A DNA stretch of 49,118 bases. It comes from an uncultured Actinomycetes bacterium. Lineage in GTDB: Bacteria; Actinomycetota; Acidimicrobiia; IMCC26256; PALSA-555. Positions 3,974 to 43,647 of this stretch are shown piece by piece. Position 1 is the first letter of the stretch. Every line of letters begins with the position of its first letter. A model generated the notes under the pieces. It did not search any database and had not been told where the DNA came from. It saw only the letters and a program-made list of their open reading frames with translations. The DNA lies in NCBI GenBank assembly GCA_903899845.1, contig CAIUKV010000130.1:1-49118 (forward strand), read 5' to 3'. A program made the translations under genes and the position numbers.

Positions 3974-5149
3974 ATGTACATCGGTCTGACGGCGGAGCAG
4001 GAGGCCCTGCGCCAGGAGGTCCGGGCCTACTACGACGAGCTGCTGACCCCGGAGGTGCGGGCCGAGCTCGTCGGCAACGGCGGCGTCGGTCCCGCGATGC
4101 GCCGGGTCGTCCGCCAGATGGGCGAGGACGGCTGGCTCGGGGTCGGCTGGCCGACCGAGTACGGCGGCCGAGGCTTCACGCCGGTCGAGCAGTTCCTCTG
4201 GTTCGACGAGTCGATGCGGGCCGGTGCGCCGGTCCCGATGCTCACCATCAACACGGTCGGGCCGACGATCATGCGCTACGGCTCCGACGAGCAGCGCGAG
4301 TTCTTCCTCCCCAAGATCCTGAAGGGGGAGATCCACTTCTGCATCGGCTACTCCGAGCCCGGGGCCGGGACCGACCTCGCGGCGTTGCGGACCCGCGCCG
4401 ACCGCGACGGCGACGAGTACGTCATCAACGGCCAGAAGATGTGGACGAGCCTGGCGAGCGACGCCGACTACATCTGGCTCGCGGTGCGCACGAACCAGGA
4501 GGCCAAGAAGCACAAGGGCATCTCGCTGTTCGTCATCCCGATGGACACGCCCGGCATCAAGGTCGTCCCGATCCGCGTGATGGGCGAGTCCAACATCAAC
4601 CAGACCTACTTCGAGGACGTCCGGGTGCCCGCGTCGATGCGGGTCGGCGAGGAGAACGCCGGCTGGCAGATCATCACCGCGCAGCTGAACCACGAGCGGG
4701 TGACCCTGTGCTCGTCGGGGATCGTGGAGCGGGCCCTCACCGACGTCCGCGCCTGGGCCCAACGGTCGGTCCTGCCCGACGGTCGCCGCGTGATCGACCA
4801 GGAGTGGGTCCAGGTGTCGCTGGCCCGGGTGCACGCCCGGCTCGAGTTCCTCCGGCTCCTCAACTGGAAGATCGCGTGGGCCTCCACCACCGGCGACCTC
4901 CACCCGGCCGACGCGTCGGCGACCAAGGTCTTCGGCACCGAGTTCTACATCGAGGCCTTCCGGCTGCTCATGGAGGTCCTCGGTGAGCGGGCGTACCTCA
5001 AGGACGACGCGCCCGGGGTCGAGCTGCAGGCTCGGCTCGAGCACCAGTACCGCGGCCTGATCATCCTCACCTTCGGCGGGGGGACCAACGAGATCCAGCG
5101 CGACCTCATCTGCGTGTTCGGTCTCGGCATGCCCCTTGCCCCTCGCTGA
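3974..5149 (+). CDS. Acyl-CoA dehydrogenase (FadE29-like subunit)
   Basis: MYIGLTAEQEALRQEVRAYYDELL...YSEPGAGTDLAALRTRA...GGGTNEIQRDLI. Confidence 0.9.
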   Translation: MYIGLTAEQEALRQEVRAYYDELLTPEVRAELVGNGGVGPAMRRVVRQMGEDGWLGVGWPTEYGGRGFTPVEQFLWFDESMRAGAPVPMLTINTVGPTIMRYGSDEQREFFLPKILKGEIHFCIGYSEPGAGTDLAALRTRADRDGDEYVINGQKMWTSLASDADYIWLAVRTNQEAKKHKGISLFVIPMDTPGIKVVPIRVMGESNINQTYFEDVRVPASMRVGEENAGWQIITAQLNHERVTLCSSGIVERALTDVRAWAQRSVLPDGRRVIDQEWVQVSLARVHARLEFLRLLNWKIAWASTTGDLHPADASATKVFGTEFYIEAFRLLMEVLGERAYLKDDAPGVELQARLEHQYRGLIILTFGGGTNEIQRDLICVFGLGMPLAPR

Positions 5150-5180: not shown

Positions 5181-6302
5181 GTGGACTTCAACCTTTCCGA
5201 CGAGCAGCAGGACCTGCGGACCCTCGCCGCGCAGATCCTGGAGGGCGAGCTCTCGACCGAGCGGCTCAAGGAGGTCGACGCCGGTCCCGACCGCTTCGAC
5301 CGCGAGCTCTGGCGCACGCTGGCCGCGGCCGGCCTGCTCGGGGTGGCGGTGCCCGAGGCGCACGGCGGCCTCGGCTACGGGTTCCTCGAGGCCGCCGTCG
5401 TGCTCGAGCAGATCGGGCGCACCGTGGCGCCCGTTCCCTACCTCGCCACGGTGGTGCTCGGGGGTCTGCCGATCGCCCGGTTCGGGACCGACGCCCAGCA
5501 GTCCCGGTACCTGCCCGGGCTCGCGGCCGGGGAGACGGTGTGCACGGCGGCCCTGGTCGAGTTCGGGGCCGACCCGCACGCCCCGCGCACCACGGCGCGC
5601 CGTGACGGCTCGGGCTGGGTCCTCGACGGCGTGAAGGAGTGCGTGCCCGCCGGGACGGTGGCCGACGCGATCCTGGTGCCGGCCCGGACCGACGACGGCG
5701 GGATCCTGCTCGCGCTCGTGGCGGCCGCCGCGCCCGGGCTGACCCGGGAGCGCCAGGACACCACGAACGGCGACCCCGAGGCCCGGTGCACCCTGGTGGG
5801 AGTGCGGGTCGACGACGCCGACGTGCTCGGTTCGCCGGCCGACGGCGCCGCGAACCTCGCCTGGATCGTGGAGCGGGCCACCGCCGCGCAGTGCGCGGTG
5901 ATGGTCGGCGTGTGCGAGGTGGCGCTCCGGATGACCGCGGAGTACACGAAGACCCGCGAGCAGTTCGGGCGGGCCATCGCCACCTTCCAGGCGGTCGGTC
6001 AGCGTGCGGCCGACGCCTACATCGACACCGAGGCCATCCGGCTCACCGCCTGGCAGGCCGTGTGGCGGCTCGCCGAAGGGCTGCCCGCCACGGCCGAGGT
6101 CGCGGTGGCCAAGTTCTGGGCCGCCGAGGGCGGCCAGCGCGTCGTCCACGCGGCCCAGCACCTCCACGGTGGCATGGGCGTGGACCGCGACTACCCGCTG
6201 CACCGCTACTTCCTGCTGGCGAAGAAGCTCGAGCTCGCGCTCGGGGGCGCCACCCCGCAGCTCGTGCGCCTCGGCGGCATCCTCGCCGCCGAGCCCGTCT
6301 GA
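5181..6302 (+). CDS. Acyl-CoA dehydrogenase (FadE28-like partner subunit)
   Basis: GTG start after gggaggag; VDFNLSDEQQDLRTLAAQILEGE...DAYIDTEAIR...HLHGGMGVDRDYPLHRYF. Confidence 0.88.
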   Translation: MDFNLSDEQQDLRTLAAQILEGELSTERLKEVDAGPDRFDRELWRTLAAAGLLGVAVPEAHGGLGYGFLEAAVVLEQIGRTVAPVPYLATVVLGGLPIARFGTDAQQSRYLPGLAAGETVCTAALVEFGADPHAPRTTARRDGSGWVLDGVKECVPAGTVADAILVPARTDDGGILLALVAAAAPGLTRERQDTTNGDPEARCTLVGVRVDDADVLGSPADGAANLAWIVERATAAQCAVMVGVCEVALRMTAEYTKTREQFGRAIATFQAVGQRAADAYIDTEAIRLTAWQAVWRLAEGLPATAEVAVAKFWAAEGGQRVVHAAQHLHGGMGVDRDYPLHRYFLLAKKLELALGGATPQLVRLGGILAAEPV

Positions 6303-9715: not shown

Positions 9716-9766
9716 GTGGCACCCCGGTGCCGAGCGTCCGATCCGAATCTCCAGGAGCCCCCATGA
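9716..9766 (+). other. Putative 16-aa leader peptide (uORF) MAPRCRASDPNLQEPP overlapping ACAD start (ATGA)
   Basis: GTG 6 nt after CACGAT; stop TGA overlaps ATG 9763. Confidence 0.4.
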
Positions 9767-11034
9767 CGACCACGGCCGACCGTCCGCTCGGTGCCCGCTT
9801 CGGCACCGAGGACACCCCCGAGGAGGCTGCCTTCCGGGCCGAGGCCCGGGCGTTCTTCGAGGGCATCTCCGAGCGGCGCACCGACCGCGACGAGACCGGG
9901 AACTACTTCGCGATGGCCGACAACGACCCGGAGACCCACCGGCGCCACGTCGAGCGCAACCGCGACGCCCAGCGCCGCATCGCCGACGCCGGATGGGCCG
10001 GGTTCTGCGTGCCCGAGGAGTACGGCGGTCGGGGCGGCGAGCGCTGGCAGGAGCGGATCTTCCGTCAGGAGCAGGCCCGCTTCACCATCGACACCGGCCT
10101 GTTCGCGGTGTCGCTCGGCATGGTCCTGCCGACGATCCTGGCCCACGGCACCGAGGAGCAGAAGCGCCGGCACATCCCGTCGATGCTGCAGGGCGAGGAG
10201 ATCTGGTGCCAGCTGTTCTCGGAGCCCGGGGCGGGGTCCGATCTGGCCGGACTCACCACCCGGGCCGTCCGTGACGGTGACGAGTTCGTGGTCAACGGGC
10301 AGAAGGTGTGGAACTCCGGTGCGCACCACGCCGACTACGGGGCCCTCATCGCCCGGACCGACGTCGACGTGCCCAAGCACCGGGGGATCACCTACTTCCT
10401 CGTCGACATGCGCCTGCCCGGCGTCGAGGTGCGGCCGCTGCGCCAGGCGACCGGTGTGGCCCACTTCAACGAGGTGTTCCTCACCGACGTGCGGATCCCG
10501 GCCGACTGCGTGCTCGGCGAGGTCAACGGGGGCTGGGGCGTCGCCCAGACCATGCTGATGAACGAGCGCAACATGATCGGCAGCGGCGGGATGGGCATCG
10601 GCTTCGGTGACTACCTGCGCATGGCCCGCGAGCTGGGCGTCACCGACGATCCGGCGATCCGCCAGGCGCTCGCCGCCGCGTTCATCCGCACCGAGATCCT
10701 CAAGTACCTCGGGGCCCGGGCCCAGGCGGCGGCGCGGGCGGGACGCCAGCCCGGTCCCGAGACGTCGGTCGGCAAGCTCGTGGCGTCCCTGCACTCCGCG
10801 GCCAACGGCGACCTCGGCCTCCAGATCCAGGGAGCGGGCGGCATGCTGGCCGGGCCCGACGCCTTCCGGCGGGGGATGTTCCAGCAGATGTTCGTCGGCC
10901 AGTGGGGCATGCGCATCGGCGGCGGCACGGAGCAGATCCAGCGCAACGTGATCGGTGAGCGGGTCCTCGGCCTGCCCGGGGAGCCCCGGCCCGACAAGAC
11001 CCTCCCGTTCAAGGACCTCCCGCAGAACGGATGA
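9763..11034 (+). CDS. Acyl-CoA dehydrogenase
   Basis: FSEPGAGSDLAGLTTRA, NGQKVWNSGAHHADY, IGGGTEQIQRNVIGERVLGLP. Confidence 0.9.
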   Translation: MTTTADRPLGARFGTEDTPEEAAFRAEARAFFEGISERRTDRDETGNYFAMADNDPETHRRHVERNRDAQRRIADAGWAGFCVPEEYGGRGGERWQERIFRQEQARFTIDTGLFAVSLGMVLPTILAHGTEEQKRRHIPSMLQGEEIWCQLFSEPGAGSDLAGLTTRAVRDGDEFVVNGQKVWNSGAHHADYGALIARTDVDVPKHRGITYFLVDMRLPGVEVRPLRQATGVAHFNEVFLTDVRIPADCVLGEVNGGWGVAQTMLMNERNMIGSGGMGIGFGDYLRMARELGVTDDPAIRQALAAAFIRTEILKYLGARAQAAARAGRQPGPETSVGKLVASLHSAANGDLGLQIQGAGGMLAGPDAFRRGMFQQMFVGQWGMRIGGGTEQIQRNVIGERVLGLPGEPRPDKTLPFKDLPQNG

Positions 11035-11118: not shown

Positions 11119-11925
11119 TCAGATCGGCATCGTGGATCCGCCGTTGGGGCGCATGACGATCCCGGTGACGAACTTCGCCGCCGGGGCGGCGAGGTAGAGG
11201 GCGGCGAAGGCGATGTCGTCGGGTTCGCCCGGGATGCCCATGGGCGACAGCTTCGAGCCCCGCTGCTCGACGTAGGCCCGCTTGCGCTCGGGGTCGACGG
11301 AGCCGTCGGGGCGAAGCGCGTGGCGCTCGTTCATGGGGGTGTCGACCCAGCCCGGCGCGATCGCGTTGACGCGCACGTGGAAGGGGGCGAGCTCGGCGGC
11401 GAGCGTGCGGGACAGCTGCGCGACCGCGACCTTGCTCGCGGAGTAGCAGATGATCCCCGGGGTCGCGATGTCGATCGCGCCCGACGCGAGGTTGATGATG
11501 GAGCCGCTGCGCTGGTCGCGCATGACCCGACCGGCGGCCTGGCAACCGAAGAAGACGCCCTTGAAGTTCACGGCCATGACCCGGTCGAGGTCGGCCTCGG
11601 TGGTGTCGAGCACGGTCGAGTCGACGATGACCGCGGCGTTGTTCACCATGACGTCGAGGCGGCCGTGGCGCGCGACCGCGTCGGCCACCAGGTCGTCCAC
11701 CTCGGCCCGCCGGCTGACGTCGACGGTCCGGGCCCAGGCCCTGCCCCCGGCGGCGGTGATCTCGGCCGCGGTGGCCTCGGCGGTCGCGGCGACGACGTCG
11801 GCGCAGCCCACCGCGGCGCCGGCTTCGGCGAGCCGGAGGGCGATGGCGCGACCGAGGCCGCGCCCGGCCCCGGTGACCAGGGCGACCCGGCCCGAGAGAT
11901 CGAAGGCGTCGGCGATCGAGGGCAT
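11119..11925 (-). CDS. SDR family oxidoreductase
   Basis: SGRVALVTGAGRGLGRAIA, NNAA, YSASK, C-terminal MRPNGGSTMPI. Confidence 0.9.
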   Translation of the reverse strand: MPSIADAFDLSGRVALVTGAGRGLGRAIALRLAEAGAAVGCADVVAATAEATAAEITAAGGRAWARTVDVSRRAEVDDLVADAVARHGRLDVMVNNAAVIVDSTVLDTTEADLDRVMAVNFKGVFFGCQAAGRVMRDQRSGSIINLASGAIDIATPGIICYSASKVAVAQLSRTLAAELAPFHVRVNAIAPGWVDTPMNERHALRPDGSVDPERKRAYVEQRGSKLSPMGIPGEPDDIAFAALYLAAPAAKFVTGIVMRPNGGSTMPI

Positions 11926-11960: not shown

Positions 11961-14336
11961 GTGGCCACCGCGCTGGGGGGACTGCGGGTCGTGGAGGTGG
12001 GCTGCGGCCTGCCCGCGAGCTACGCGACCAAGCTCCTGGCGCTGCTCGGGGCCGACGTGGTCAAGGTCGAGCCCACGACCGGGGACCCCGAGCGGGGCCG
12101 GGGCCCGTTCCCCGGTGACGCCGTCGACCGCGACTCGGGTGGGGGGCTGTTCCGCTACCTCAACGCCGACAAGCGCTCGGTGCTGCTCGAGCCCGGCGCC
12201 GCCGCCGACGTCGAGACGCTGCGGCGGCTGGTGGGCGAGGCCGACGTGCTGGTCGAGGCGCTCGGCCCCGGTGGGCTCGAGGCCCTGGGCCTGACCCCCG
12301 ACGGGCTCGGGGCGACGCTCGGGATCGTGCGCATCAGTCCCTTCGGCCAGACCGGGCCCGCCGCCGGCGACCCGGCCACCGGGCTCACGGTGATGGCGAC
12401 GGGTGGCTGGGTGTCGAACCACGGGATCCCGGGAGTGCCGCCCGTGCAGACCGGGGGCCGTCTCCACGACTACACCGTGGGCGCCTACGCGGCCTGCGCC
12501 GCCCTGACCACCGCGCGCGCGGCGGCGGCCGGGGGCGGCCCGGCGGTGGCCGACCTCTCGGCCATGGAGGCCATGGTCTCCACGCTGCCGTACCCGATGC
12601 TGCTCCACGAGACCTTCATGGCCCTCGGCTTCCCGATCGGGGAGGAGCGGTACTCGACGATCCCCGGGATCGTCCGGTGCGCCGACGGATGGGTCGGGAT
12701 CAACGCGCTCACCGGCCAGCACTTCCAGGACATCTGCGCCATGCTCGGTGCACCCGAGTTCGCCCCCCGCCAGCAGGAGATCTCGTGGGGGGGTGCGCCG
12801 CTGGCCGAGTTCTTCGCCGCCGTGCAGCCCTGGCTCGACACCCACACGGTCGACGAGATCGTCGGGCTCGCCCAGGCCTTCCGCATCCCGGCCGCGCCGG
12901 TGGGGAACGGCGAGACGCTGCTGCGCAACCCGCAGCTCGTGGCCCGGGGCTTCTGGACCACCGAGCCGGGGGGCGACCTCGTGTTCCCCGGGCCGCCGTG
13001 GCGACTCGGGGCGACCCCCGCCGCGGCCCGGCGCCGGGCCCCGACCCTCACCGCGGCGCAGGCGACCCCGGCCGGGTTCGCCGACCCCCGGCCCGCCCCG
13101 GTCGGCGCCGGCGCCACCCCTGCGCTGCCCTTCGCCGGCCTGCGGGTGCTGGACCTCGGCACCTTCTGGGCGGGTCCGTACGTGTCCATGTACCTCGGCG
13201 CGTTCGGGGCCGACGTCGTGAAGGTCGAGTCGATCCAGCGCCCCGACGGCTTCCGGTTCTCGGGGGCCTTCCCCCAGGAGGGCGACGACTGGTACGACCG
13301 GGCCGGCGTGTGGCAGGGCACGAACCTCGACAAGCGCGACGTGACCCTCGACGCCACGCGCCCCGACGGGATCGACCTGCTCCGCCGTCTCGTCGCCGGG
13401 GCCGACGTCGTGATCGAGAACTTCTCGGCCCGGGTGGTCGAGCAGTTCGGTCTGGACTACGAGGGGGTGCGCGCCCTGCGCCCCGACGTCATCATGCTGC
13501 GCATGCCCGGCTTCGGGCTCGAGGGTCCGTGGCGCGACTACGTCGGCTGGGCCATGGGCATCGAGCAGGCGTCGGGCATGGCCCAGGTCACGGGGTTCGC
13601 CGACACGCCCATGCACCCGGGCGGCTTCGCCGACCCGATGATCGCGATGCACGCGGCCACCGCGCTGCAGGCCGCGCTCGTGCACCGGGAACGCACCGGC
13701 GAAGGTCAGATGATCGAGGTGGCCCAGCTCGAGACCGCGTGCTGCCTGACCGCCGATCAGCCCATGGACTTCCAGTGGAACGGCCGGCTCGCGACCCGGA
13801 TCGGCAACCACGACCTCCGGATGGCGCCCCAGGGCGTGTACCGCACGAGTGACGGGGAGTGGGTCGCGTTGACCGTGCGCGACGATGCGGCGTGGCGTGA
13901 CCTGGTGGAGGCGCTGGGGCGTCCGCTGTGGGTCACCGACGACTTCACGACGGCGGCCGGCCGCCAGGCCGGCCGGGACGACCTCGACCAGCTGCTGGGG
14001 GAGTGGTTCGCCGAACGGTCGGCCGATGACGTGCTCGCCCTCCTGCGCCCCTGCGGCCTCGCCGTGGGGCGGGTCCTGCGGGCTCCGGCCATGTACGACG
14101 ACCCCCAGCTCGTCGCCCGGGGGTACTTCGTGCCCCTCGAGAACCCGAAGACCGGGGTCCGCCGGTACCCGGGCTGGCCGATGCGGTTCTCGTTCGCCGC
14201 GGCCCCGCACCGCTTCGGGCCGCCCACCCTGGGCCAGCACAACGCCGAGGTGCTGGGAGGGCTCGGCGTCGGCCCGGCCGACCTGGCCCGGCTGGAGGCC
14301 GACGGGATCATCGGGACCCGCATGGCGGGCACCTGA
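11961..14336 (+). CDS. Fused double-domain CaiB/BaiF CoA-transferase (791 aa)
   Basis: Two complete domains: LRVVEVGCGLPASYATKLLALLGADVVKVEP... and LRVLDLGTFWAGPYVSMYLGAFGADVVKVES... Confidence 0.9.
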   Translation: MATALGGLRVVEVGCGLPASYATKLLALLGADVVKVEPTTGDPERGRGPFPGDAVDRDSGGGLFRYLNADKRSVLLEPGAAADVETLRRLVGEADVLVEALGPGGLEALGLTPDGLGATLGIVRISPFGQTGPAAGDPATGLTVMATGGWVSNHGIPGVPPVQTGGRLHDYTVGAYAACAALTTARAAAAGGGPAVADLSAMEAMVSTLPYPMLLHETFMALGFPIGEERYSTIPGIVRCADGWVGINALTGQHFQDICAMLGAPEFAPRQQEISWGGAPLAEFFAAVQPWLDTHTVDEIVGLAQAFRIPAAPVGNGETLLRNPQLVARGFWTTEPGGDLVFPGPPWRLGATPAAARRRAPTLTAAQATPAGFADPRPAPVGAGATPALPFAGLRVLDLGTFWAGPYVSMYLGAFGADVVKVESIQRPDGFRFSGAFPQEGDDWYDRAGVWQGTNLDKRDVTLDATRPDGIDLLRRLVAGADVVIENFSARVVEQFGLDYEGVRALRPDVIMLRMPGFGLEGPWRDYVGWAMGIEQASGMAQVTGFADTPMHPGGFADPMIAMHAATALQAALVHRERTGEGQMIEVAQLETACCLTADQPMDFQWNGRLATRIGNHDLRMAPQGVYRTSDGEWVALTVRDDAAWRDLVEALGRPLWVTDDFTTAAGRQAGRDDLDQLLGEWFAERSADDVLALLRPCGLAVGRVLRAPAMYDDPQLVARGYFVPLENPKTGVRRYPGWPMRFSFAAAPHRFGPPTLGQHNAEVLGGLGVGPADLARLEADGIIGTRMAGT

Positions 14337-14379
14337 GCCACCGTGACGGCGTAGCCTGGCCCGATCCCGGGAGGTGGCG

Positions 14380-15564
14380 ATGTTCCTCGACTACACCGAC
14401 GAGCAGCAGGCGCTGAGCAAGGAGCTCCGGGAGTACTTCGCCCGGCTGCTCCCGACCGAGCTGCGGGCCGAGATCGGCGCCTCGGGCGAGGGCAGCCCCC
14501 GCTTCCGCGAGATCGTCCGGCAGATGGGCCGGGACGGCTGGCTCGGCATCGGGTGGCCCACGGAGTACGGCGGGCAGGGGCGGGGAGTCCTCGACCAGTT
14601 CGTGTTCTTCGACGAGGTGCAGCGGGCGAACGCGCCGTTCCCGTTCGTGACCGTCAACACGGTGGGCCCGGCGCTCATGGAGCACGGCACCGACGCGCAG
14701 AAGCAGCGGTACCTGCCCGGGATCCTCGCCGGTGAGATCAACTTCGCCATCGGCTACACGGAGCCCGAGGCCGGGACCGATCTCGCCGCGCTGCGGACCC
14801 GGGCGGTCCTCGACGGCGACGAGTGGGTGATCAACGGCAGCAAGGTGTACACGAGCGGGGCCAACCAGGCCGACTACGTCTGGCTCGCCTGCCGGACCGA
14901 CCCCGACGCCCCCAGGCACAAGGGCATCTCCATCATCGTCGTGCCCACGGCGTCGCCCGGGTTCTCCACCAGCCCGATCGTGACGGTCGGGAGCGTGGTG
15001 ACCCAGGCCACCTACTACGAAGACATCCGCGTGCCGGCCGACAACGTCGTCGGCGAGGTCAACGGCGGCTGGCGGCTCATCACCAGCCAGCTCAACCACG
15101 AGCGGGTCGGCCTCGCCGCGCTGGCCGGTCAGACCCACCGCTGCTACGACGACGTGGTCGAGTGGTGTCGGACGACCCCGGCGGCCGACGGCAGCGGCCG
15201 GATGATGATCGACGTCGACTGGGTGCAGCGCGACCTCGCCGAGGCCTACGCCCGCGGCGAGGCGATGAAGCTCCTGAACTGGCGCATGGCCGCGGCGGTC
15301 GCCGACAACACGCTGACGCCTGCGGATGCCTCGGCGGCGAAGGTGTTCGGGGTCGAGACCCAGATCGCCATGTACCGGCTGATGCTGAGCGTGCTCGGGG
15401 CTGCGGGCTACCTCCCGACCGGGTCGCCGGGTGCGGTGCTGCGGGGCGACGTGGAGCGCAACGGCCGGGCCGCGCAGATCAACAGCTTCGGCGGCGGGGT
15501 GGTCGAGGTCCTGCGGGAGATCGTGGCGACGGCCGGCCTGGGGATGGTGCGCCAGGCCCGCTAG
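14380..15564 (+). CDS. Acyl-CoA dehydrogenase, ChsE2/FadE29-like
   Basis: MFLDYTDEQQALSKELREYF...YTEPEAGTDLAALRTRA...SFGGGVVEVLREIVA; gggagg RBS; igr-like synteny. Confidence 0.88.
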   Translation: MFLDYTDEQQALSKELREYFARLLPTELRAEIGASGEGSPRFREIVRQMGRDGWLGIGWPTEYGGQGRGVLDQFVFFDEVQRANAPFPFVTVNTVGPALMEHGTDAQKQRYLPGILAGEINFAIGYTEPEAGTDLAALRTRAVLDGDEWVINGSKVYTSGANQADYVWLACRTDPDAPRHKGISIIVVPTASPGFSTSPIVTVGSVVTQATYYEDIRVPADNVVGEVNGGWRLITSQLNHERVGLAALAGQTHRCYDDVVEWCRTTPAADGSGRMMIDVDWVQRDLAEAYARGEAMKLLNWRMAAAVADNTLTPADASAAKVFGVETQIAMYRLMLSVLGAAGYLPTGSPGAVLRGDVERNGRAAQINSFGGGVVEVLREIVATAGLGMVRQAR

Positions 15565-15609
15565 GGCCCAGAATGGCCCGCCCAGCCCGGCGGCCGAGAG
15601 CGGAGAGCG

Positions 15610-16611
15610 ATGCACGAGAGCGAGACCACCGACGGGGCCGCGTTCCTGGCCCGGTGCAAGGCGTTCGAGGGACGCGAGGTCGACGCGCTGGTCGCGCCCG
15701 ACCCGGTGAACCAGGCGATGATCCGGCACTGGGTCGAGGCGATGGGGGACGCCAACCCCGTGTACACCGACCCGGACGCGGCGGCCGCCTCGGTCCACGG
15801 CGAGATCATCGCCCCGGCGGTGATGCTGCAGGCCTGGACCATGCCCGGGCTCCACGGCAACGCGCGCGGCCCGGGTGACACCAACCCGCAGTCGCAGCTG
15901 CTCAACCTGCTCGACGACGCCGGGTTCGTCGGGGTCGTGGCGACCGACAGCGAGCAGGAGTACGTGCGGATGCTCCATCTCGGGGACCACATCACCGCCC
16001 GCTCGGTGATCGACGAGGTCTCGACGGAGAAGCGCACCGCCCTCGGGGTCGGGCACTTCATCACCACCCGGATCGACTACACCGACGCCGACGGCGAGCT
16101 CGTGGGCACGCAGCGCTGGCGCATCCTGAAGTTCCGGCCCGGCACCGGTCGCGGCGCAGCGGCCCCGCCCGCGGCCGCGGCGCCGGAAGCCGAGCCGCCG
16201 CGCCGGATGCCCCGCCCCCGGCCCGGCACGACGCTCGACAACCTCTTCTTCTTCGAGGGCGCCATGGAGCGCCGCCTGCTGATCCAGCGGTGTGCCGCGT
16301 GTCAGGTGCTCCGGCACCCACCCCAGCCCCGCTGCGACCGCTGCGGCGCGTACGACTGGGACACGGTCGAGGCGTGCGGTCGGGGCACGGTGTACAGCTT
16401 CGTGGTCAACCACTATCCGCAGGTCCCGGCGTTCGACTACCCCCTCCCCATCGGGCTGATCGAGCTCGAGGAGGGCACGCGGCTCGTCGCCCAGATCGTC
16501 GACTGCCCGATCGAGGACATCGTGGTCGGCATGGCGGTCGAGGTGACGTGGCTCGACGACGACCCCGAACTGGTCGTCCCGGCGTTCCGTCCCGCCCGGA
16601 GCGGGTCGTGA
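15610..16611 (+). CDS. chsH2: MaoC-like (inactive-type) + DUF35 Zn-ribbon/OB fusion, ChsH2-like
   Basis: N-terminal hotdog GDANPVYTDPD (no catalytic His); Pro/Ala linker; C-terminal CAACQVLRHPPQPRCDRC Zn ribbon + OB fold; same architecture as mycobacterial ChsH2. Confidence 0.82.
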   Translation: MHESETTDGAAFLARCKAFEGREVDALVAPDPVNQAMIRHWVEAMGDANPVYTDPDAAAASVHGEIIAPAVMLQAWTMPGLHGNARGPGDTNPQSQLLNLLDDAGFVGVVATDSEQEYVRMLHLGDHITARSVIDEVSTEKRTALGVGHFITTRIDYTDADGELVGTQRWRILKFRPGTGRGAAAPPAAAAPEAEPPRRMPRPRPGTTLDNLFFFEGAMERRLLIQRCAACQVLRHPPQPRCDRCGAYDWDTVEACGRGTVYSFVVNHYPQVPAFDYPLPIGLIELEEGTRLVAQIVDCPIEDIVVGMAVEVTWLDDDPELVVPAFRPARSGS

Positions 16612-17726
16612 ACTTCGCCCTGACCGAGGAGCAGACCGCGGTCCGCGACCTCGCCGAGCAGATCTTCACCGGCACGGTCACCGTCGATCGGGTCAAGGAG
16701 GTCGAGGCCTCCGACGACCGCATCGACCGCGCGCTGTGGCGTGAGCTCGCCGACGCGAACCTGCTCGGCATCGCCCTCCCCGAGGAGCACGGTGGCTCGG
16801 GCCTCGGGCTGACCGAGACCGCCCTGGTGCTGGAGCAGCAGGGCCGGGTCGTGGCGCCGGTGCCCTACTGGGCGACGGTGGTCTGCGGCGCCCTCCCGGT
16901 GGTGGCCTTCGGCACGCCGGCCCAGCAGCACGCCCTGCTCCCCGGGGTGGCGGCCGGTGAGGTGTTCCTCAGCGCCGCGCTCGCCGAGCCCGGGGTCAAC
17001 GACCCGACCGCCCCCGGCACCGTGGCGGTGGCCGACGGCGACCGGTGGCGCATCGACGGCGTGAAGCCCGCCGTGCCCGCCGGGCACCTCGCCGACCGGA
17101 TCCTCGTCCCCGCGACGACGCCCGACGGTCCGGCGGTGTTCCTGGTCGACCCGACCAACCCCGGCGTGACCCGGGAGCGGGCGGTCACCACCGACCGCGG
17201 GATCGTGGCCCACTGCACCTTCGCCGGGGCCCCGGCCGAGCGGCTCGGCGGCGACGCCCACCGGGGGGAGCGCGTCCTCGCCGCCCTCGTGGACCGTGCG
17301 CTCGTGGGGCTGTGCGCGCTCCAGCTCGGCGTGTGCGAGGCCGCGGTGCGCCAGGCCGCCGAGTACACCTCGGGCCGCTTCCAGTTCGGCAAGCCGCTGT
17401 CGGCGTTCCAGGGGTCCCAGATCCGGGGCGCCGACGCCTACATCGACACCGAGGCCATCCGGGTGACGATGCTCCAGGCGGCGTGGATGCTCGACACCGG
17501 CCGGGCCGCGACCGCCGACGTGCTCGTGGCCAAGTGGTGGGCGGCCGAGGCCGGGCAGCGGGTGGTGCACCACGTGCAGCACCTCCACGGCGGCATGGGG
17601 GCCGACATCGAGTACCCGGTCCACCGGTACTTCCTGTGGGGCAAGCAGATCGAGGACACCCTGGGCGGCGCCAGCGCCACCCTGGCCCGCCTGGGCCGCA
17701 CGCTCGCAGCCCAGGCCCACGCGTGA
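16608..17726 (+). CDS. Acyl-CoA dehydrogenase, ChsE1/FadE28-like
   Basis: VNFALTEEQTAVRDLAEQIFTG...DAYIDTEAIR...HVQHLHGGMGADIEYPVHRYFLWGKQIE; GTGA overlap with upstream gene. Confidence 0.87.
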   Translation: MNFALTEEQTAVRDLAEQIFTGTVTVDRVKEVEASDDRIDRALWRELADANLLGIALPEEHGGSGLGLTETALVLEQQGRVVAPVPYWATVVCGALPVVAFGTPAQQHALLPGVAAGEVFLSAALAEPGVNDPTAPGTVAVADGDRWRIDGVKPAVPAGHLADRILVPATTPDGPAVFLVDPTNPGVTRERAVTTDRGIVAHCTFAGAPAERLGGDAHRGERVLAALVDRALVGLCALQLGVCEAAVRQAAEYTSGRFQFGKPLSAFQGSQIRGADAYIDTEAIRVTMLQAAWMLDTGRAATADVLVAKWWAAEAGQRVVHHVQHLHGGMGADIEYPVHRYFLWGKQIEDTLGGASATLARLGRTLAAQAHA

Positions 17727-17734
17727 GAGGACCC

Positions 17735-18295
17735 ATGACGACATCCCTGCGCTACGACGACGTCCGGGTCGGCGACGAGCTCCCCGTGCTCGACGTACCG
17801 GTGACCCGATCCCTCATCGTCGCCACCGCCATCGCCTCGCGCGACTACCAGGACGTGCACCACGACCCGGCCCTGGCGCAGGAGAAGGGCTCGCCCGACA
17901 TCTTCATGAACATCCTCACCACCAACGGGTTCGTCGGCCGCTACGTCACCGACTGGGCCGGACCCGATGCGGTCGTGCGGGCGGTGAAGATCCGCCTCGG
18001 CGCGCCCAACCATCCGGGTGACACGATGCGCCTGACCGGGGCGGTCACCGCCAAGGCCGACGGCCGGGTGGAGGTGGGGATCCGGGGGGCCAACTCGCTC
18101 GGCGACCACGTGACCGGCACCGTGTCGCTCGAGCTGCCCGGACCGGCGGCGCCCGCCGGGGCGCCGCACGAGCGGAGGCCGTCGGACGCAACGCCGACGC
18201 AGAAGTCGAAGAAGGACAAGAAGCAGAAGTCGAAGAACAAGAAGCAGGACAAGAAGCAGAAGTCGAAGCAGCCGACGAAGGGTGCGCAACGGTGA
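17735..18295 (+). CDS. chsH1: MaoC-like enoyl-CoA hydratase, ChsH1-like, with Lys-rich C-terminal tail
   Basis: ASRDYQDVHHDPALAQEKGSPDIFMN hydratase motif; tail QKSKKDKKQKSKNKKQDKKQKSKQPTKGAQR. Confidence 0.82.
   Translation: MTTSLRYDDVRVGDELPVLDVPVTRSLIVATAIASRDYQDVHHDPALAQEKGSPDIFMNILTTNGFVGRYVTDWAGPDAVVRAVKIRLGAPNHPGDTMRLTGAVTAKADGRVEVGIRGANSLGDHVTGTVSLELPGPAAPAGAPHERRPSDATPTQKSKKDKKQKSKNKKQDKKQKSKQPTKGAQR
18200..18271 (+). repeat. AAG-rich coding repeat; perfect 21-bp direct repeat GACAAGAAGCAGAAGTCGAAG at 18215-18235 and 18248-18268
   Basis: Direct reading; period 33 bp. Confidence 0.9.
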
Positions 18296-19551
18296 GCGAG
18301 CGTCACCGGCTGCTCGATGCAGCCGCCATCGTGGGGATCGGGGCCACCGAGTTCTCCAAGAACTCCGGCCGCTCGGAGATGCGCCTCGCGGTCGAGGCGT
18401 GCGAGGCGGCCATCGCCGACGCGGGGCTCACCCCCGGCCAGATCGACGGCTGGGTCACCTACAGCGCCGAGACCAACCCGGAGATCGAGGTGGCCAAGAA
18501 CCTCGGCGCCGGCGAGATGACGTTCTTCTCCCGGATCCACCACGGCGGGGGTGCCGCCTGCGGGGTCATCCAGCAGGCGGTGCTGGCCGTGAGCGCCGGG
18601 GTCGCGGACTACGTCGTGTGCTACCGGGCGTTCAACGAGCGGTCCGGACGCCGCTTCGGCGCCGGGGTCCAGGACCGACCCGCGCAGGCGACGGCCGAGA
18701 GCGCAGGCTTCGCCTGGTACGCGCCCTTCGGTCTGCTGACCCCGGCCCAGTGGGTGGCGATGTTCGCCCGCCGGTACATGCACGAGTACGGCGCGACCAG
18801 CGAGGACTTCGGCCGGATCGCGGTGGCCGACCGGACGCACGCGGCCACCAACCCGAAGGCGTACTTCTACAACGCGCCCATCACGCTCGAGGACCACCAG
18901 CAGTCGCGGTGGATCGTCGAGCCGCTGCACCTGCTCGACTGCTGCCAGGAGTCCGACGGGGCCCAGGCCATCGTCGTCACGACTCCCGAGCGGGCTCGCG
19001 ACCTGCCGAACCCGCCGGTCCTGGTGCGGGCGGCGGCCCAGGCGGCGGGCGACCACCAGGAGATGATGACGAGCTACTACCGCCCGTCGATCACCGGGCT
19101 GCCCGAGATGAACCTGTGCGCCCGTCAGCTCTACAACACCACGGGCCTCGGACCGTCGGACTTCCAGACCGCCGTCATCTACGACCACTTCACCCCCCTG
19201 GCCCTGCCGCAGTTCGAGGAGTTCGGCTTCTGCGGCCGGGGCGAGGCCAAGGACTTCATCGCCGACGGCGCGATCGAGCTCGGGGGCCGGCTCCCGATCA
19301 ACACCCACGGTGGTCAGCTCGGCGAGGCGTACATCCACGGCATGAACGGCATCGCCGAGGGCGTGCGGCAGGTCCGGGGCACCTCCGTCAACCAGGTGCC
19401 CGGGGTCGAGCACGTGCTCGTGACCGCGGGCACGATGGTCCCGACCAGCGCGCTCGTGCTCGGGACCGACCGGGGCGGGCCGCTCCCGGCGACGTCGACC
19501 CGCTCGTTCGGCTTCAGAGGTAGGCGAGGAGGCGGGTCTCCGCCTCGATGA
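18292..19551 (+). CDS. ltp2: Thiolase-fold lipid-transfer/aldolase protein, Ltp2-like
   Basis: AAIVGIGATEFSKNSGRSEMRLAVEACEAAIADAGL...VIYDHFTPLALPQFEEFGFC...NTHGGQLGEAYIHGMNGI; GTGA overlap with chsH1-like gene. Confidence 0.85.
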   Translation: MSERHRLLDAAAIVGIGATEFSKNSGRSEMRLAVEACEAAIADAGLTPGQIDGWVTYSAETNPEIEVAKNLGAGEMTFFSRIHHGGGAACGVIQQAVLAVSAGVADYVVCYRAFNERSGRRFGAGVQDRPAQATAESAGFAWYAPFGLLTPAQWVAMFARRYMHEYGATSEDFGRIAVADRTHAATNPKAYFYNAPITLEDHQQSRWIVEPLHLLDCCQESDGAQAIVVTTPERARDLPNPPVLVRAAAQAAGDHQEMMTSYYRPSITGLPEMNLCARQLYNTTGLGPSDFQTAVIYDHFTPLALPQFEEFGFCGRGEAKDFIADGAIELGGRLPINTHGGQLGEAYIHGMNGIAEGVRQVRGTSVNQVPGVEHVLVTAGTMVPTSALVLGTDRGGPLPATSTRSFGFRGRRGGGSPPR

Positions 19552-26204: not shown

Positions 26205-27854
26205 TCAGCCCGCGTCGAGCGCGCCGAGGCGCTCGTGGCGGGCGAACTCGGCGAGCAGCGCCTCCCGGTCGGCGGCGGTCATCGGGGCGAGGCCCGCCCC
26301 GCGGGCCGGGCGCCAGAAGACGGGCTCGTCGGTGTCCCACCGCTCGCGGCGCAGCACGCGCTTGAGCGGCTTCTGGCTCTCGGTCACCGGCATCGCCTCG
26401 GTCACCCGCACGTAGCGGGGTGACCACTTGGTGCCGAGGTCGGTCTGCGCGCCGAGGAACTCGTCGAAGGCGGCCGGGTCGAACCCGGTGCCCGGACGGA
26501 GCTGGAGCGTGGCCATGACCTGGTCGCCGACCTCGGCGTCGGGGACCGCGTAGACCGCGGCGAGCACCACCGCCTCGTGCCGGGCGAGGATGCGCTCGAT
26601 CGGCGCTGCGGCGAAGTTCTCGCCGTCGACCCGGATCCACTCGAAGTCGCGACCGGCGAAGTAGATGTAGCCCTCGTCGTCGCGGTAGGCGAGGTCGCCG
26701 GTCCAGTACCAGCCGTTGCGGATTCGCTGCTCGTTGGCCTCGTCGTTCTTGTAGTAGCCCTCGAAACCGGCGGCCCCGAGCTTGTTGACCATCTCGCCGA
26801 TGCACTCGTCGGGGTTGAGCAGGCGGCCCTGGTCGTCGAAGCGGGCCCGGGGCATCTCCTCGAGCGTCTCGGGGTCGCACACCACGATCCCGTCGGCGGG
26901 CATGCCGAGCGCGCCCCGGGGCATCTCGGGGCTCCGGTTCACGTGGGCCCCGCCCTCGGTCGAGCCGTAGCCGTCGACGACCGGGCAGCCGAACCGGGCC
27001 TCGAAGCGAGCGATGTCGAGATCGGCGGCCTCGTTGCCGAAGGCGAGGCGCAGGGTGTTGTCGGCGTCGTCGGGCTGCGGCGGGGTGGCGAGGATGTAGG
27101 ACAGCGGCTTGCCGACGTAGTTGAAGTAGGTGATCCCGTACTTGCGGACGTCGGGCAGGAAGCCCGAGGCGGAGAACCGGCGACGGGGCACCGCCACCGA
27201 GCCGACGAGCACCCACGGGCAGAAGGACGTGATCACCGCGTTCGAGTGGAACAGCGGCATGGCGAGGTAGAAGACGTCGTCGGCGCTGAGCCCCATGTTC
27301 CCGCTCAGGATGGTGGCGCTGTACAGGAGCCGGCGCTGGGAGAGGATGCAGGCCTTGGGGGCGCCGCTCGTGCCCGAGGTGAACAGCAGGTTGTAGATGC
27401 CGCCCTCGTCGACGTCGACCTCGGGCGGGGTGGTGGGGTAGGGGTCGAGTGCGGCGGCCGACTCGGGATCGTCCACGACCAGCAGGCTGCCGGTGGCGTC
27501 ACCGAGGTCCAGTCCCTCGACCAGCGGGAGGTGCCGGCTCTCGGTGACCACGATCTGGCAGTCGGTGTAGGTGATGTCGCGGGCGAGCTCGGCGCCGCGC
27601 CGGGTGGGGTTGACCCCGACGAGGACCGTGCCCGAGAGCGCGGTCGCCCCGAGCCACATGAGGTACTCGGGGGTGTTGTCGAGCAGGACGCCCACGTGGG
27701 GCGGCCGGCCGTCGGGGAGCCGGTCGAGGAGGTAGGCGGCCCGCCGGCTGCAGGCATCGACGTACTCGGCCCAGGTCCAGGACTGGTCCTCGAAGCGGAG
27801 GGCCACCCTGGGGTCCCCGGCCCGGCTCCGGATCAGCTCGGCGACGTTGGGCAT
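26205..27854 (-). CDS. AMP-dependent acyl-CoA synthetase (FadD17-like)
   Basis: LLFTSGTSGAPKACILSQ, DGYGSTEGG, YWTGDLAYRDDEGYIYFAGR, SQKPLKRVL. Confidence 0.88.
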   Translation of the reverse strand: MPNVAELIRSRAGDPRVALRFEDQSWTWAEYVDACSRRAAYLLDRLPDGRPPHVGVLLDNTPEYLMWLGATALSGTVLVGVNPTRRGAELARDITYTDCQIVVTESRHLPLVEGLDLGDATGSLLVVDDPESAAALDPYPTTPPEVDVDEGGIYNLLFTSGTSGAPKACILSQRRLLYSATILSGNMGLSADDVFYLAMPLFHSNAVITSFCPWVLVGSVAVPRRRFSASGFLPDVRKYGITYFNYVGKPLSYILATPPQPDDADNTLRLAFGNEAADLDIARFEARFGCPVVDGYGSTEGGAHVNRSPEMPRGALGMPADGIVVCDPETLEEMPRARFDDQGRLLNPDECIGEMVNKLGAAGFEGYYKNDEANEQRIRNGWYWTGDLAYRDDEGYIYFAGRDFEWIRVDGENFAAAPIERILARHEAVVLAAVYAVPDAEVGDQVMATLQLRPGTGFDPAAFDEFLGAQTDLGTKWSPRYVRVTEAMPVTESQKPLKRVLRRERWDTDEPVFWRPARGAGLAPMTAADREALLAEFARHERLGALDAG

Positions 27855-27986: not shown

Positions 27987-29129
27987 GTGGGAACGGCGCA
28001 GGGAACGGCGCAGGGAGGGGAGGTCGGGGTGGCGGCACGGGCGGGCGGCAGCGGAACCGGGCGGCGCGAGGGGGCCGGGCGGGCCGGGCGGGCCGGGCTC
28101 GTCGGGCTCCTCGATCGGGTCGCCGTCGTGGCCCTCGTCGTCGGGCTCGTCGTCGGGCTCGTCCCGGGGACGGCCGGGCCGGCCGGCGCGGCTCCCGGGG
28201 ACTCGATCACCGTCTACAGCGGCCGCAACGAGGCGCTGATCAAGCCGTTGTTCGACCAGTTCACCCGCGACACCGGCATCGAGGTGCAGGTCCGCTACGG
28301 CGACAGCGGCGCCCTGGCGTCGCAGATGCTCACGGAGGGCGGCGCGAGCCCGGCCGACGTGTTCGTGTCCCAGGACGCCGGCGCGCTCGGCGCGCTGACG
28401 AACGCCCGGCTCCTGGCGAAGCTGCCGCCCCGGAGCCGCAGCGCCGTCGCACCCGAGTACCGGGCCGACGACGGCACCTGGGTCGGCACCAGTGGCCGGG
28501 TCCGGGTCCTCGTGTACAACCCGAAGCTGCTGCCCGATCCCCCCACCACGATCGACGAGGTCGTCGACCCCCGTTACAAGGGGAAGGTCGGGTACGCGCC
28601 GACCAACGCGTCGTGGCAGTCCTTCGTCACCGGCCTGCGGGTCCTGCGGGGCGAGCGCAAGGCCGAGAAGTGGCTGCGGGCGTTCGCGGCCAACGAGCCG
28701 AAGGCGTACGCGAGCAACGCGGCGATCCGGGACGCGGTCGACGCCGGACAGATCTGGATGGGCCTGGTCAACCACTACTACCTGTGGCAGAAGATCGTGC
28801 AGAACGGGGAGTCGTCAGTGGTGGCGCGCAACCAGTTCATGGCGCCGGGAGACCCGGGCGGGCTGGTCAACGTCGCCGGGGTGGGCGTCCTGAAGTCCTC
28901 GAGGAACAAGAAGGCGGCGCAGGTCTTCGTCGACTACATGCTGTCGGAGAAGGGTCAGGCGTACTTCGCCGACAGCACGTATGAGTATCCGCTCGCGGCC
29001 GGCGTCCAGCCCTCGGTACGGCTGCCGAGCCTCGCCAAGCTGCGGGCGCCGGCGCTCGACCTCTCCGACCTGGACTCCCTCGCCGCGACCCAGGAGCTCC
29101 TGGCCGAGACGGGGCTCCTCACGCGGTGA
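27987..29129 (+). CDS. Ferric iron ABC transporter substrate-binding protein (FbpA-like)
   Basis: SITVYSGRNEALIKPLFDQFTRDTGIEVQVRYGDS; double-Tyr NHYYLW iron-site motif; signal peptide. Start 27987 (leaderless) or 28029 (after gggaggggagg). Confidence 0.88.
   Translation: MGTAQGTAQGGEVGVAARAGGSGTGRREGAGRAGRAGLVGLLDRVAVVALVVGLVVGLVPGTAGPAGAAPGDSITVYSGRNEALIKPLFDQFTRDTGIEVQVRYGDSGALASQMLTEGGASPADVFVSQDAGALGALTNARLLAKLPPRSRSAVAPEYRADDGTWVGTSGRVRVLVYNPKLLPDPPTTIDEVVDPRYKGKVGYAPTNASWQSFVTGLRVLRGERKAEKWLRAFAANEPKAYASNAAIRDAVDAGQIWMGLVNHYYLWQKIVQNGESSVVARNQFMAPGDPGGLVNVAGVGVLKSSRNKKAAQVFVDYMLSEKGQAYFADSTYEYPLAAGVQPSVRLPSLAKLRAPALDLSDLDSLAATQELLAETGLLTR
27989..28012 (+). repeat. 12-bp tandem duplication GGGAACGGCGCA
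   Basis: Two perfect copies. Confidence 0.85.
28072..28157 (+). repeat. 9-bp (GGGCCGGGC x3) and 12-bp (CTCGTCGTCGGG x2) tandem repeats in signal-peptide coding region
   Basis: 28072-28098 and 28134-28157; encode AGRAGRAG and LVVGLVVGLV. Confidence 0.85.
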
Positions 29130-30703
29130 CCGGAGTCGCGGTGTCGGCCCCGCTCGGGCCGCCCCGTCGCCGCCCTCCGGTCGTGCTGGTGCTCGGGGCG
29201 CTCGCGGCGGTGGTCGTCGCGGTCCTGCCACTCGTCTATCTGGTGGACCGGGCCGGGAGCCTCGGCTGGTCGGCGGCGGTCGCCGAGCTGGTCCAGCGTC
29301 GCACGGTCGAGCTGCTGTGGCGCAGCCTCGTGCTGGCCGGGACCGTCACCGTGCTCGCCTCGGTGATCGGGGTCGCCGCCGCCTGGCTCGTCGTCCGCAG
29401 CGACGTCCCCGGCCGGCGTTTCTGGGCGGTCCTCGTCGTGCTCCCGCTCGCCATGCCGTCGTACGCCGCGGCGTACGCGTGGCTGTCGTGGCGTCCGGCG
29501 ATGGCCCCGTTCCCGGGGACCGTCCTGGTCCTGACCCTGGTCGCCTACCCGTACGTCTACCTCCCGGTGGCCGCGGCGTTGCGTCGCCTCGACCCGGCCC
29601 AGGAGGAGGTCGCCCGCTCGCTCGGCCAGCACCCGGCCCGGGTCGTGGTGACCCTGACCCTGCGCCAGGTCCGCCCGGCCGTCGCCTCGGGCGCGCTGCT
29701 CGTGGCGCTCTACGCTCTCTCGGATTTCGGGGCCCCGGCGCTGTTCCGCTACGAGGTGTTCACGTTCGTGATCTACGGCGCCTACAACGCGGGCTTCGAC
29801 CCGACCCGGGCGGCCGTGCTCGGGCTCGCACTGGTGCTCGTGGCCGCCCTGGTCGTGGTGGCCGAGGCGTGGGTCCGCGGGCGGCCTGCGTACGCCCGGA
29901 TCGGCTCCGGGGCGCCCCGGCGGCAGTACCCGGTCGCGCTGCGGGGTGGGCGTCCGGTCGCGCTCGCGTTCCTCGTCGCCGTGTTCGCGCTCGGCATCGG
30001 GTTCCCGATGTGGCGCTTCGTGTACTGGACCCGGGCGGCGCTCGACCGCACGGTGCCCTGGGGAGAGGTCGCCGACGCGCTCGGCCACACGCTGTGGTGG
30101 TCGCTGCTCGCGGCGGCCGCCACCCTGGTGCTGGCCGTCCCCGTCGGCGTCCTCGTGGCGCGGTACCGGTCCCGCCTCACCACCGGGCTCGAGCGCTCCA
30201 CGTACGTGGCCCACGCGCTGCCGGGGATCGTGGTCGCGATCGCGCTCGTCTACGTGGGGGTCACCGTGTTGCGCCCGGTGTACCAGGAGGTCCCCCTGCT
30301 GATCCTCGCCTACGTGGTCCTCTTCCTGTCGCTCGCGATCGGGACGGTCCGGACCGGGGTCGAGCAGACCCCGGTCGCGCAGGAGGAGGTCGCCCGATCG
30401 CTCGGGCGCCGGCCGGGCCAGGTCCTGGCCCGGGTCACCCTGCCCCAGGCGGCCCCGGCGCTCGCCGGAGGGGCGGCGTTGGTGTTCGTGACCGCGATGA
30501 AGGAGCTGCCGGCCACGCTGCTGCTCCGTCCGACCGGCCTCGACACCCTCGCCACCCGCCTGTGGACGTTCACCTCGGAGAGCAACTACGCCGCGGGTGC
30601 GCCGTACGTGGTCGCGTTGGTCTGCTTCGCCGCGATCCCCACCGCGTTCCTCTCCCGGTTCGTGGTCGACGCGGGCGCCCGGCTCGGGGAGCACCGTGAC
30701 TGA
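29126..30703 (+). CDS. Ferric iron ABC transporter permease (FbpB-like, duplicated domain)
   Basis: Multi-TM; two EEVARSLG EAA-loop motifs; GTGA overlap with substrate-binding protein. Confidence 0.9.
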   Translation: MTGVAVSAPLGPPRRRPPVVLVLGALAAVVVAVLPLVYLVDRAGSLGWSAAVAELVQRRTVELLWRSLVLAGTVTVLASVIGVAAAWLVVRSDVPGRRFWAVLVVLPLAMPSYAAAYAWLSWRPAMAPFPGTVLVLTLVAYPYVYLPVAAALRRLDPAQEEVARSLGQHPARVVVTLTLRQVRPAVASGALLVALYALSDFGAPALFRYEVFTFVIYGAYNAGFDPTRAAVLGLALVLVAALVVVAEAWVRGRPAYARIGSGAPRRQYPVALRGGRPVALAFLVAVFALGIGFPMWRFVYWTRAALDRTVPWGEVADALGHTLWWSLLAAAATLVLAVPVGVLVARYRSRLTTGLERSTYVAHALPGIVVAIALVYVGVTVLRPVYQEVPLLILAYVVLFLSLAIGTVRTGVEQTPVAQEEVARSLGRRPGQVLARVTLPQAAPALAGGAALVFVTAMKELPATLLLRPTGLDTLATRLWTFTSESNYAAGAPYVVALVCFAAIPTAFLSRFVVDAGARLGEHRD

Positions 30704-30720
30704 GCCCGCGGAGATGCACC

Positions 30721-42858: not shown

Positions 42859-42860
42859 GG

Positions 42861-43181
42861 TCAACCGGGCCCCGGGTGGGTCGCAAGCTCGGCCCGCTCG
42901 GCGACCAGGTCGTGGAGGGCCAGCAGCGACGGGAACCCGACCCCGAGCGTCTGCGCGGCCCAGCGCCACGCGTCGTCCCCGAGTCCCGAGCGCCGGGCGA
43001 ACCGCCACGCGTGGACGGCCTCGCCGACGTGCAGCGCGAGCGCCCCGGCGAACAGCAGGCCGAGCCGGCGCGACCGGCGGCGTCGCGCCACGACCGCGTT
43101 GGCGATCAGGCCGCCGCCGTTGGTCACCCACCAGAGCCCGGGCACCGGGACGAAGGTCGGCGGTGCCGGCGGGGCGCTCAC
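42861..43181 (-). CDS. Small membrane protein, DUF4499 (TMEM254)-like
   Basis: LALHVGEAVHAWRFARRSGLGDDAWRWAAQTLGVGFPSLLAL; overlaps upstream DUF35 stop. Confidence 0.65.
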   Translation of the reverse strand: MSAPPAPPTFVPVPGLWWVTNGGGLIANAVVARRRRSRRLGLLFAGALALHVGEAVHAWRFARRSGLGDDAWRWAAQTLGVGFPSLLALHDLVAERAELATHPGPG

Positions 43182-43645: not shown

Positions 43646-43647
43646 CG

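Follow-up and report, generated by a model that had tools for sequence, protein, structure and literature searches.

A predicted cas-type operon for C3 side-chain removal headed by a fused double CoA-transferase in an uncultured actinobacterium

The stretch of DNA analyzed here, referred to as the window, is the 49,118-nucleotide contig CAIUKV010000130.1 (C130) from an uncultured member of the Actinomycetes (assembly GCA_903899845.1), one of the 284 contigs of a genome of 2.89 Mb that is 99.6% complete (G000; L and G numbers denote the loci and genomes compared). It contains six genes on the plus strand (11961-19551) with a codon bias of the coding type. The first encodes a fused double CoA-transferase, hereafter dCaiB, and is followed by genes for a large acyl-CoA dehydrogenase (ACAD; E1), a MaoC-DUF35 fusion protein, a small ACAD (E2), a MaoC hydratase and a thiolase-like aldolase (Table 1). 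Genes were called with a codon-usage gene model, domains were assigned with Pfam and NCBIfam, and structures were matched by sequence comparison with PDB entries. The open reading frames and the matches in all three databases agree with the gene identities and the tight packing on a single strand that had been put forward in an original prediction made from the DNA letters alone. The GTGA-type or near-zero junctions proposed at the same time hold for the last three of the five gene borders but not for the first two, the distances being +43, +45, -4, +8 and -4 bp in the order of the genes. For the large ACAD, an alternative GTG start is possible upstream, at position 14374. Scans of the sequence for promoters and terminators returned nothing above chance level. 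The arrangement is not a matter of chance, because the same block of genes is kept in relatives at 53-99% identity.

Table 1. Genes of the predicted operon and further features of the window
Feature	Position	Strand	Basis
Fused double type III (CaiB/BaiF) CoA-transferase (dCaiB), 791 aa	11961-14336	+	PF02515 x2; N-half BbsE-like, C-half BbsF-like, Asp558
Large ACAD (E1), FadE29/ChsE2-type, CasL position	14380-15564	+	Tcur3483 520 bits, 4x28_A 424 bits
MaoC-DUF35 fusion, ChsH2-type, CasM position	15610-16611	+	PF13452 + zf-ChsH2 + OB_ChsH2_C
Small ACAD (E2), FadE28/ChsE1-type, CasN position	16608-17726	+	Tcur3481 340 bits, 4x28_D 218 bits
MaoC hydratase, ChsH1-type, CasO position	17735-18295	+	4wnb_B (ChsH1) 125 bits; D-x4-H motif
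Ltp2-type retro-aldolase, thiolase-like, CasP position	18292-19551	+	6ok1_A (T. curvata Ltp2) 629 bits
CYP125-like P450	2672-3895	-	CYP125MRCA 576 bits, CYP125 377, CYP124 341 (PDB)
Second ChsE-like heteromeric ACAD pair	3974-5149 and 5181-6302	+	Pfam
Additional ACAD	9763-11034	+	Pfam; upstream of dCaiB in relatives
Divergent short-chain dehydrogenase/reductase (SDR) gene	11119-11925	-	Between additional ACAD and dCaiB
Second P450	22961-24190	+	
CasI/FadD17-like ATP-dependent steroid acyl-CoA ligase, outside operon	26205-27854	-	NF052587 (CasI)

Judged by their sequences, the five genes downstream of dCaiB are the set for removal of a C3 (propionyl) side chain, consisting of ChsE1-ChsE2, ChsH1-ChsH2 and Ltp2-DUF35. 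ACAD pairs of these families convert C22 acyl-CoA into the 17(20)-ene. C17 is then hydrated by the ChsH-type hydratase, and the release of propionyl-CoA by Ltp2-DUF35 leaves a 17-ketone. The MaoC-DUF35 fusion protein combines the two domains of ChsH2 and matches the solved structures of both parts, i.e., the ChsH2 N-domain (4wnb_A, 130 bits) and the ChsH2 DUF35 domain (6ok1_B, 160 bits), and the D-x4-H motif of its ChsH1-type partner (DVHHD, aligned to 4wnb_B) is kept in most orthologs. With 186 residues, the ChsH1-type protein has a C-terminus about 45 residues longer than in its relatives (137-150 residues). In two of the loci compared (L044 and L102), ChsH2 is split into two genes, with MaoC and DUF35 encoded separately. 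The aldolase passes the NCBIfam model NF005892 (PRK07855 'lipid-transfer protein') with 673 bits, where 469 are required. A YDHF motif with the base Tyr294 and the acid Tyr344 distinguish C3-specific Ltp2 from C5-specific Sal, which has YDCY and Gln (PMC12329534), and the Ltp2-specific tyrosine pair is present in the protein from the window (YDHF and GEAYIH, the latter containing the Tyr344 equivalent, aligned to 6ok1).

The protein encoded by the first gene contains two CoA_transf_3 domains and the catalytic aspartate of type III CoA-transferases. Its N-terminal and C-terminal halves find their best structural matches in different chains of benzylsuccinate CoA-transferase, namely 9fn0_A (126 bits) and 9fn0_B (223 bits), respectively. 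We infer that these chains are BbsE and BbsF; the PDB record says 'subunit' for both. Aspartate occupies the catalytic position in the C-terminal halves of all orthologs and paralogs examined. In the N-terminal halves, this position is held by glutamate, except that the proteins from the window and from G001, a genome of the same genus, have aspartate there, and the aligned residue of 9fn0 chain A is a tyrosine. As the halves match the two subunits of BbsEF and aspartate is constant only in the C-terminal half, dCaiB fits a fused, BbsEF-like pseudo-heterodimer and would be a single chain with one constant active site. α-Methylacyl-CoA racemase (AMACR) is a member of the same family as the CaiB CoA-transferases, and epimerization at C25 occurs in sterol catabolism, both of which would suit an epimerase or racemase that corrects the stereochemistry of the side chain. 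However, AMACR reaches only 63-65 bits with the C-terminal half, compared to 223 for the BbsEF chain, and 32-36 bits with the N-terminal half, compared to 126; on this ranking we set the racemase identity aside as extremely improbable. The region 41323-47201 on the minus strand of the window encodes another double CoA-transferase of the fused type, which shares 41% identity with dCaiB. Adjoining genes in this region encode a thiolase of the SCP2 type, a stand-alone DUF35 protein, a membrane protein resembling TMEM254 and an amidohydrolase. The 2.9-Mb genome yields 36 CoA_transf_3 matches and 23 Ltp2/SCP2-thiolase-like matches in total.

In Mycobacterium, the genes of the igr operon are arranged in the order cyp125-fadE28-fadE29-chsH2-chsH1-ltp2, and the original prediction had likened the six genes to this operon and regarded the separation of the two ACAD genes by the chsH2-like gene as a deviation from it. 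Homologs of FadE28, FadE29, ChsH2, ChsH1 and Ltp2 are indeed clustered in the window, and to that extent the comparison is justified. The ACAD genes are, however, not adjacent, and no cyp125 precedes them within the operon: the ChsH2 gene lies between them and, as had been noted, there is no P450 gene inside the operon, but two P450s are encoded elsewhere in the window. The order ACAD, ChsH2-type, ACAD, ChsH1-type, Ltp2-type is that of casLMNOP in the cholate cluster of Rhodococcus jostii RHA1, where the locus tags for CasL to CasP are consecutive (RHA1_RS28440, 28445, 28450, 28455 and 28460; PMC8399759), which rules out the split order as a novelty. It recurs in six loci from the same phylum (L103, L105, L106, L107, L110 and L112) and on plasmid p3 of Novosphingobium sp. 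ES2-1 (L157), where the genes are headed by an annotated long-chain acyl-CoA synthetase. The C3 module on this plasmid is complete, and the plasmid is predicted to be conjugative.

Phylogenetic trees were calculated for both ACADs without sequences from R. jostii RHA1 (thus without its Cas proteins), Mycobacterium tuberculosis and Thermomonospora curvata. In the tree for the large ACAD, the protein from the window falls into a clade of 13 rows from loci with the interleaved order (SH-aLRT, the Shimodaira-Hasegawa-like approximate likelihood ratio test, 98), including L103 with its identical gene order, and the igr-ordered loci from Nocardia farcinica (L154) and Nonomuraea (L155) group apart. 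The small ACAD of the module likewise falls into a clade from loci with the interleaved order (SH-aLRT 98). The proteins from Novosphingobium and L102 lie outside both 13-row clades, and the match between gene order and clade is therefore imperfect. Nevertheless, the trees place the ACADs of the module with the interleaved loci, and the operon is not a rearranged igr operon.

Information on the constancy of the gene neighborhood was obtained from 58 genomes of the order, in which dCaiB orthologs were accepted at E <= 1e-170 and close E1 orthologs at >= 69% identity; the former were present in nine and the latter in 16 genomes. Wherever the arrangement could be resolved (seven of seven genomes: G000, G001, G002, G006, G009, G014 and G030), dCaiB is located upstream of E1 on the same strand, and the prediction that the double CoA-transferase leads the operon is thereby upheld as a true linkage to the module. 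It stands directly before E1 in five of these genomes, is separated from it by a short open reading frame call on the opposite strand in G009 and by three gene calls in G030 (one small and on the same strand, two on the opposite strand). In G003 and G007, dCaiB and E1 are found on separate contigs near contig ends, so that any linkage is hidden. The linked orthologs span three families of the order with 55-96% identity and their outer neighbors differ, from which it follows that dCaiB and the module have stayed together while their surroundings changed. Outside the order, L102 encodes a dCaiB homolog (49% identity) on the opposite strand, with one gene, for an aldehyde dehydrogenase, between it and a P450-E1-MaoC-DUF35-E2-H1-Ltp2 cluster. 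On plasmid pGD02.2.1 of Rhodococcus rhodochrous, a homolog of 45% identity shares an operon with E1-like (54%) and E2-like (46%) ACADs, the former being sister to the clade of the window (SH-aLRT 82). The same plasmid carries Ltp2-DUF35-MaoC-MaoC genes adjoining two single CaiB genes (L153, record 79189-93137), and a plasmid of Rhodococcus sp. DMU1 (L158) carries CaiB-CaiB-Ltp2-like-DUF35 with overlapping junctions; CoA-transferases beside an aldolase of the Ltp2 kind thus recur. No paper pairing CaiB with Ltp2, ChsH2 or FadE28 was found in a search of the open literature. Neither the module nor its order is new; the fused CoA-transferase that heads it is a conserved and apparently undescribed addition.

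The genes upstream of dCaiB offer another explanation for this linkage. An ortholog of the additional ACAD in Table 1 precedes the dCaiB ortholog by 2 bp in L043 and is located upstream of dCaiB in L035 and L039 as well. In L043 and L039, dCaiB is directly preceded by a thiolase-like gene together with this ACAD, and some genomes have the module without dCaiB. Accordingly, dCaiB might serve the upstream thiolase and ACAD or act on another acid, and joint regulation would be the only reason for its transcription together with the C3 module. We consider this quite improbable: the upstream ACAD is not adjacent in the window and in L034, yet dCaiB is still found beside the module, and in R. rhodochrous the homolog resides in an operon with the E1-like and E2-like ACAD pair.

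It had further been proposed that the CoA-transferase bypasses ATP-dependent activation of the substrate. As a general statement this is contradicted by the CasI-like ligase encoded in the window, for which NF052587 is the best family (646 bits, under the cutoff of 900), and by eight related loci (L033, L034, L036, L041, L042, L044, L106 and L112) in which an ortholog of this ligase adjoins the module or lies in its vicinity. ATP-dependent activation is therefore probably available to the pathway. Genes for a solute-binding protein, a fused two-domain permease and an ATPase (28029-31770) are located beside the ligase gene; this ABC (ATP-binding cassette) transporter may import the substrate or be unrelated to the pathway. 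The bai operon has both an ATP-dependent ligase, BaiB, and a type III transferase, BaiF, which is accompanied by BaiK; BaiF and BaiK move CoA from the product bile acid-CoA to the incoming bile acid and are thought to take over activation (PMC9868651). The combination of ligase and CoA-transferase in the window resembles this pair. In the recycling that the original prediction had proposed, dCaiB would move CoA from the released propionyl-CoA to the next acid with a C3 side chain; after priming by the CasI-like ligase, this step would consume no further ATP, and propionate would leave. In line with such recycling, dCaiB heads a module whose product is propionyl-CoA, BaiF and BaiK provide a precedent for it on steroid acids, and in L034 the module is bordered by the ligase as well as by dCaiB. 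On the other hand, BbsEF (PMC10818641), the succinate-glutarate transferases and the succinyl-CoA:mesaconate transferases, which are the nearest characterized enzymes, use succinyl-CoA, and propionate that serves as a carbon source would have to be re-activated, such that nothing would be saved unless it were excreted. Recycling of CoA from propionyl-CoA is therefore unlikely in our view. Succinyl-CoA would most probably be the donor, since the nearest characterized enzymes use it and one succinyl-CoA is cheaper than one AMP-forming ligation.

Steroid-related features of the window are the CYP125-like P450, the CasI-like ligase and the second ChsE-like ACAD pair. The CYP125-like P450 gene is arranged head-to-head with this ACAD pair, the large subunit of which belongs to a clade separate from that of the module's E1, and similar neighborhoods of a P450 and an ACAD pair exist in L109, L113 and L049. 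We infer that the substrate is a steroid or a close polycyclic relative. Taken together, the locus would represent a cas-type operon for C3 side-chain removal with a built-in substrate-activating CoA-transferase, a reading to which we assign an even chance. dCaiB would load CoA onto the acid with the C3 side chain, most probably from succinyl-CoA, with Asp558 in its C-terminal half carrying the exchange of acyl group and CoA and the degenerate N-terminal half completing the fold and the acceptor pocket. The CasI-like ATP-dependent ligase would act alongside and could also make the same thioester.

Several observations weigh against this reading. A dCaiB match at the threshold was not found in seven of the 16 genomes with a close E1 ortholog, several of them incomplete, and dCaiB is therefore dispensable for the module, whose C3 acid already has a candidate ATP ligase in the window. 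None of the curated NCBIfam models for CoA-transferases was passed by dCaiB (best score 309 bits against a cutoff of 750; the nearest models, for succinate-glutarate and succinyl-CoA:mesaconate transferases, lie far under their cutoffs), and donor and acceptor specificity are consequently not fixed by sequence. KshA_C is absent in all four genomes of the genus and present in other genomes of the family. The genome of the window itself has no match for an HsaC-type dioxygenase or a KstD-like protein; of its three full-length FAD_binding_2 proteins, two are aspartate oxidases and the third is SdhA. It follows that, within the reach of these searches, the known 9,10-seco ring degradation is not encoded, and ring breakdown by this route is unlikely. 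The case for a steroid substrate is weakened by these absences. Finally, pGD02.2.1 encodes an Ltp2 similar to that of the window (64-65% identity) beside ChcC1/KstD-like dehydrogenases, so that high Ltp2 identity alone is no guarantee of a steroid substrate. The two FAD dehydrogenases in this Rhodococcus locus, L153, are nearest to 4-oxocyclohexanecarboxylate 2-dehydrogenase and KstD and are accompanied by a P450; the locus possibly belongs to an Ltp2-type pathway that acts on a ring acid other than a steroid.

The substrate of the operon, activated by dCaiB, could accordingly be an acid other than a steroid in which the local chemistry is the same, i.e., a 2-propionate on a ring carbon, as for example in a terpenoid or alicyclic acid. 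The lack of KshA_C, detectable KstD and HsaC in an almost complete genome, the company of Ltp2 with 4-oxocyclohexanecarboxylate-dehydrogenase-like proteins and two CaiB genes on pGD02.2.1 and the great number of CaiB (36) and Ltp2-like (23) matches in the genome would be in accordance with such an acid. It is nevertheless doubtful, as the window also encodes the CYP125-like P450 and the CasI-like ligase of the steroid-22-oyl-CoA type and the ACADs of the module match Tcur3483 and Tcur3481 best, which stem from an organism that grows on cholate. The lack of the 9,10-seco genes would be explained by trimming of the side chain alone, by a different treatment of the rings or by another polycyclic acid as the substrate. 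Because the genome is devoid of 9,10-seco ring-opening genes, the proposed operon probably shortens the side chain, after which the 17-keto product would be handed on or leave the cell; alternatively, the rings may be attacked by an undescribed route. A more specific version, in which a fused BbsEF-type CoA-transferase activates the C3 acid instead of, or alternating with, an ATP ligase in organisms without the 9,10-seco pathway, either as a clipping module that stands alone or with a polycyclic acid not yet described as its substrate, is put forward tentatively, with the balance somewhat against it.

Should the activating role of dCaiB hold true, the cleavage of steroid side chains by bacteria would have its first described step catalyzed by a CoA-transferase; dCaiB would add an ATP-sparing and reversible activation step to a pathway that has so far been described with ATP ligases, and provide one branch of the actinobacterial double CoA-transferases with a defined candidate function. 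The enzyme could also serve as a practical tool for the synthesis of steroid C22 thioesters. The occurrence of the module without KstD, KshA and HsaC suggests that side-chain genes alone are no proof of full steroid degradation in metagenomes.

Among the systems known so far, casI and casLMNOP of R. jostii RHA1 come closest; they share all five enzymes and the interleaved order of their genes with the operon, and the C3-acid ligase CasI is encoded nearby. In RHA1, no CoA-transferase is given for the C3 side-chain steps (table in PMC8399759), whereas a fused CoA-transferase heads the operon in the window and the CasI-like ligase is encoded 6.6 kb away on the other strand. Among solved structures, those of Tcur3481-Tcur3483 and Ltp2-ChsH2(DUF35) of T. 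curvata match the two ACADs of the module, its DUF35 domain and its aldolase best; this organism grows on cholate but not on cholesterol (PMC4810484), and its link to the window rests on bit scores and on this growth. The igr operon of Mycobacterium shares homologous enzymes and chemistry with the operon described here, but its ACAD genes are adjacent rather than split. BaiF and BaiK are comparable in being type III CoA-transferases that act on steroid acids beside the ATP ligase BaiB. They belong to the gut 7-dehydroxylation pathway, which does not include side-chain cleavage, and unlike dCaiB they are not fused double proteins. BbsEF, like dCaiB, is composed of two unlike parts, its two subunits corresponding to the two halves of dCaiB, with the catalytic aspartate constant in one of them, and the operon logic of CoA-transferase, ACAD, hydratase and a thiolase-fold/DUF35 enzyme is common to both systems; in the window, however, the CoA-transferase is fused, the module terminates in a retro-aldolase instead of a thiolase, and a different acid is expected.

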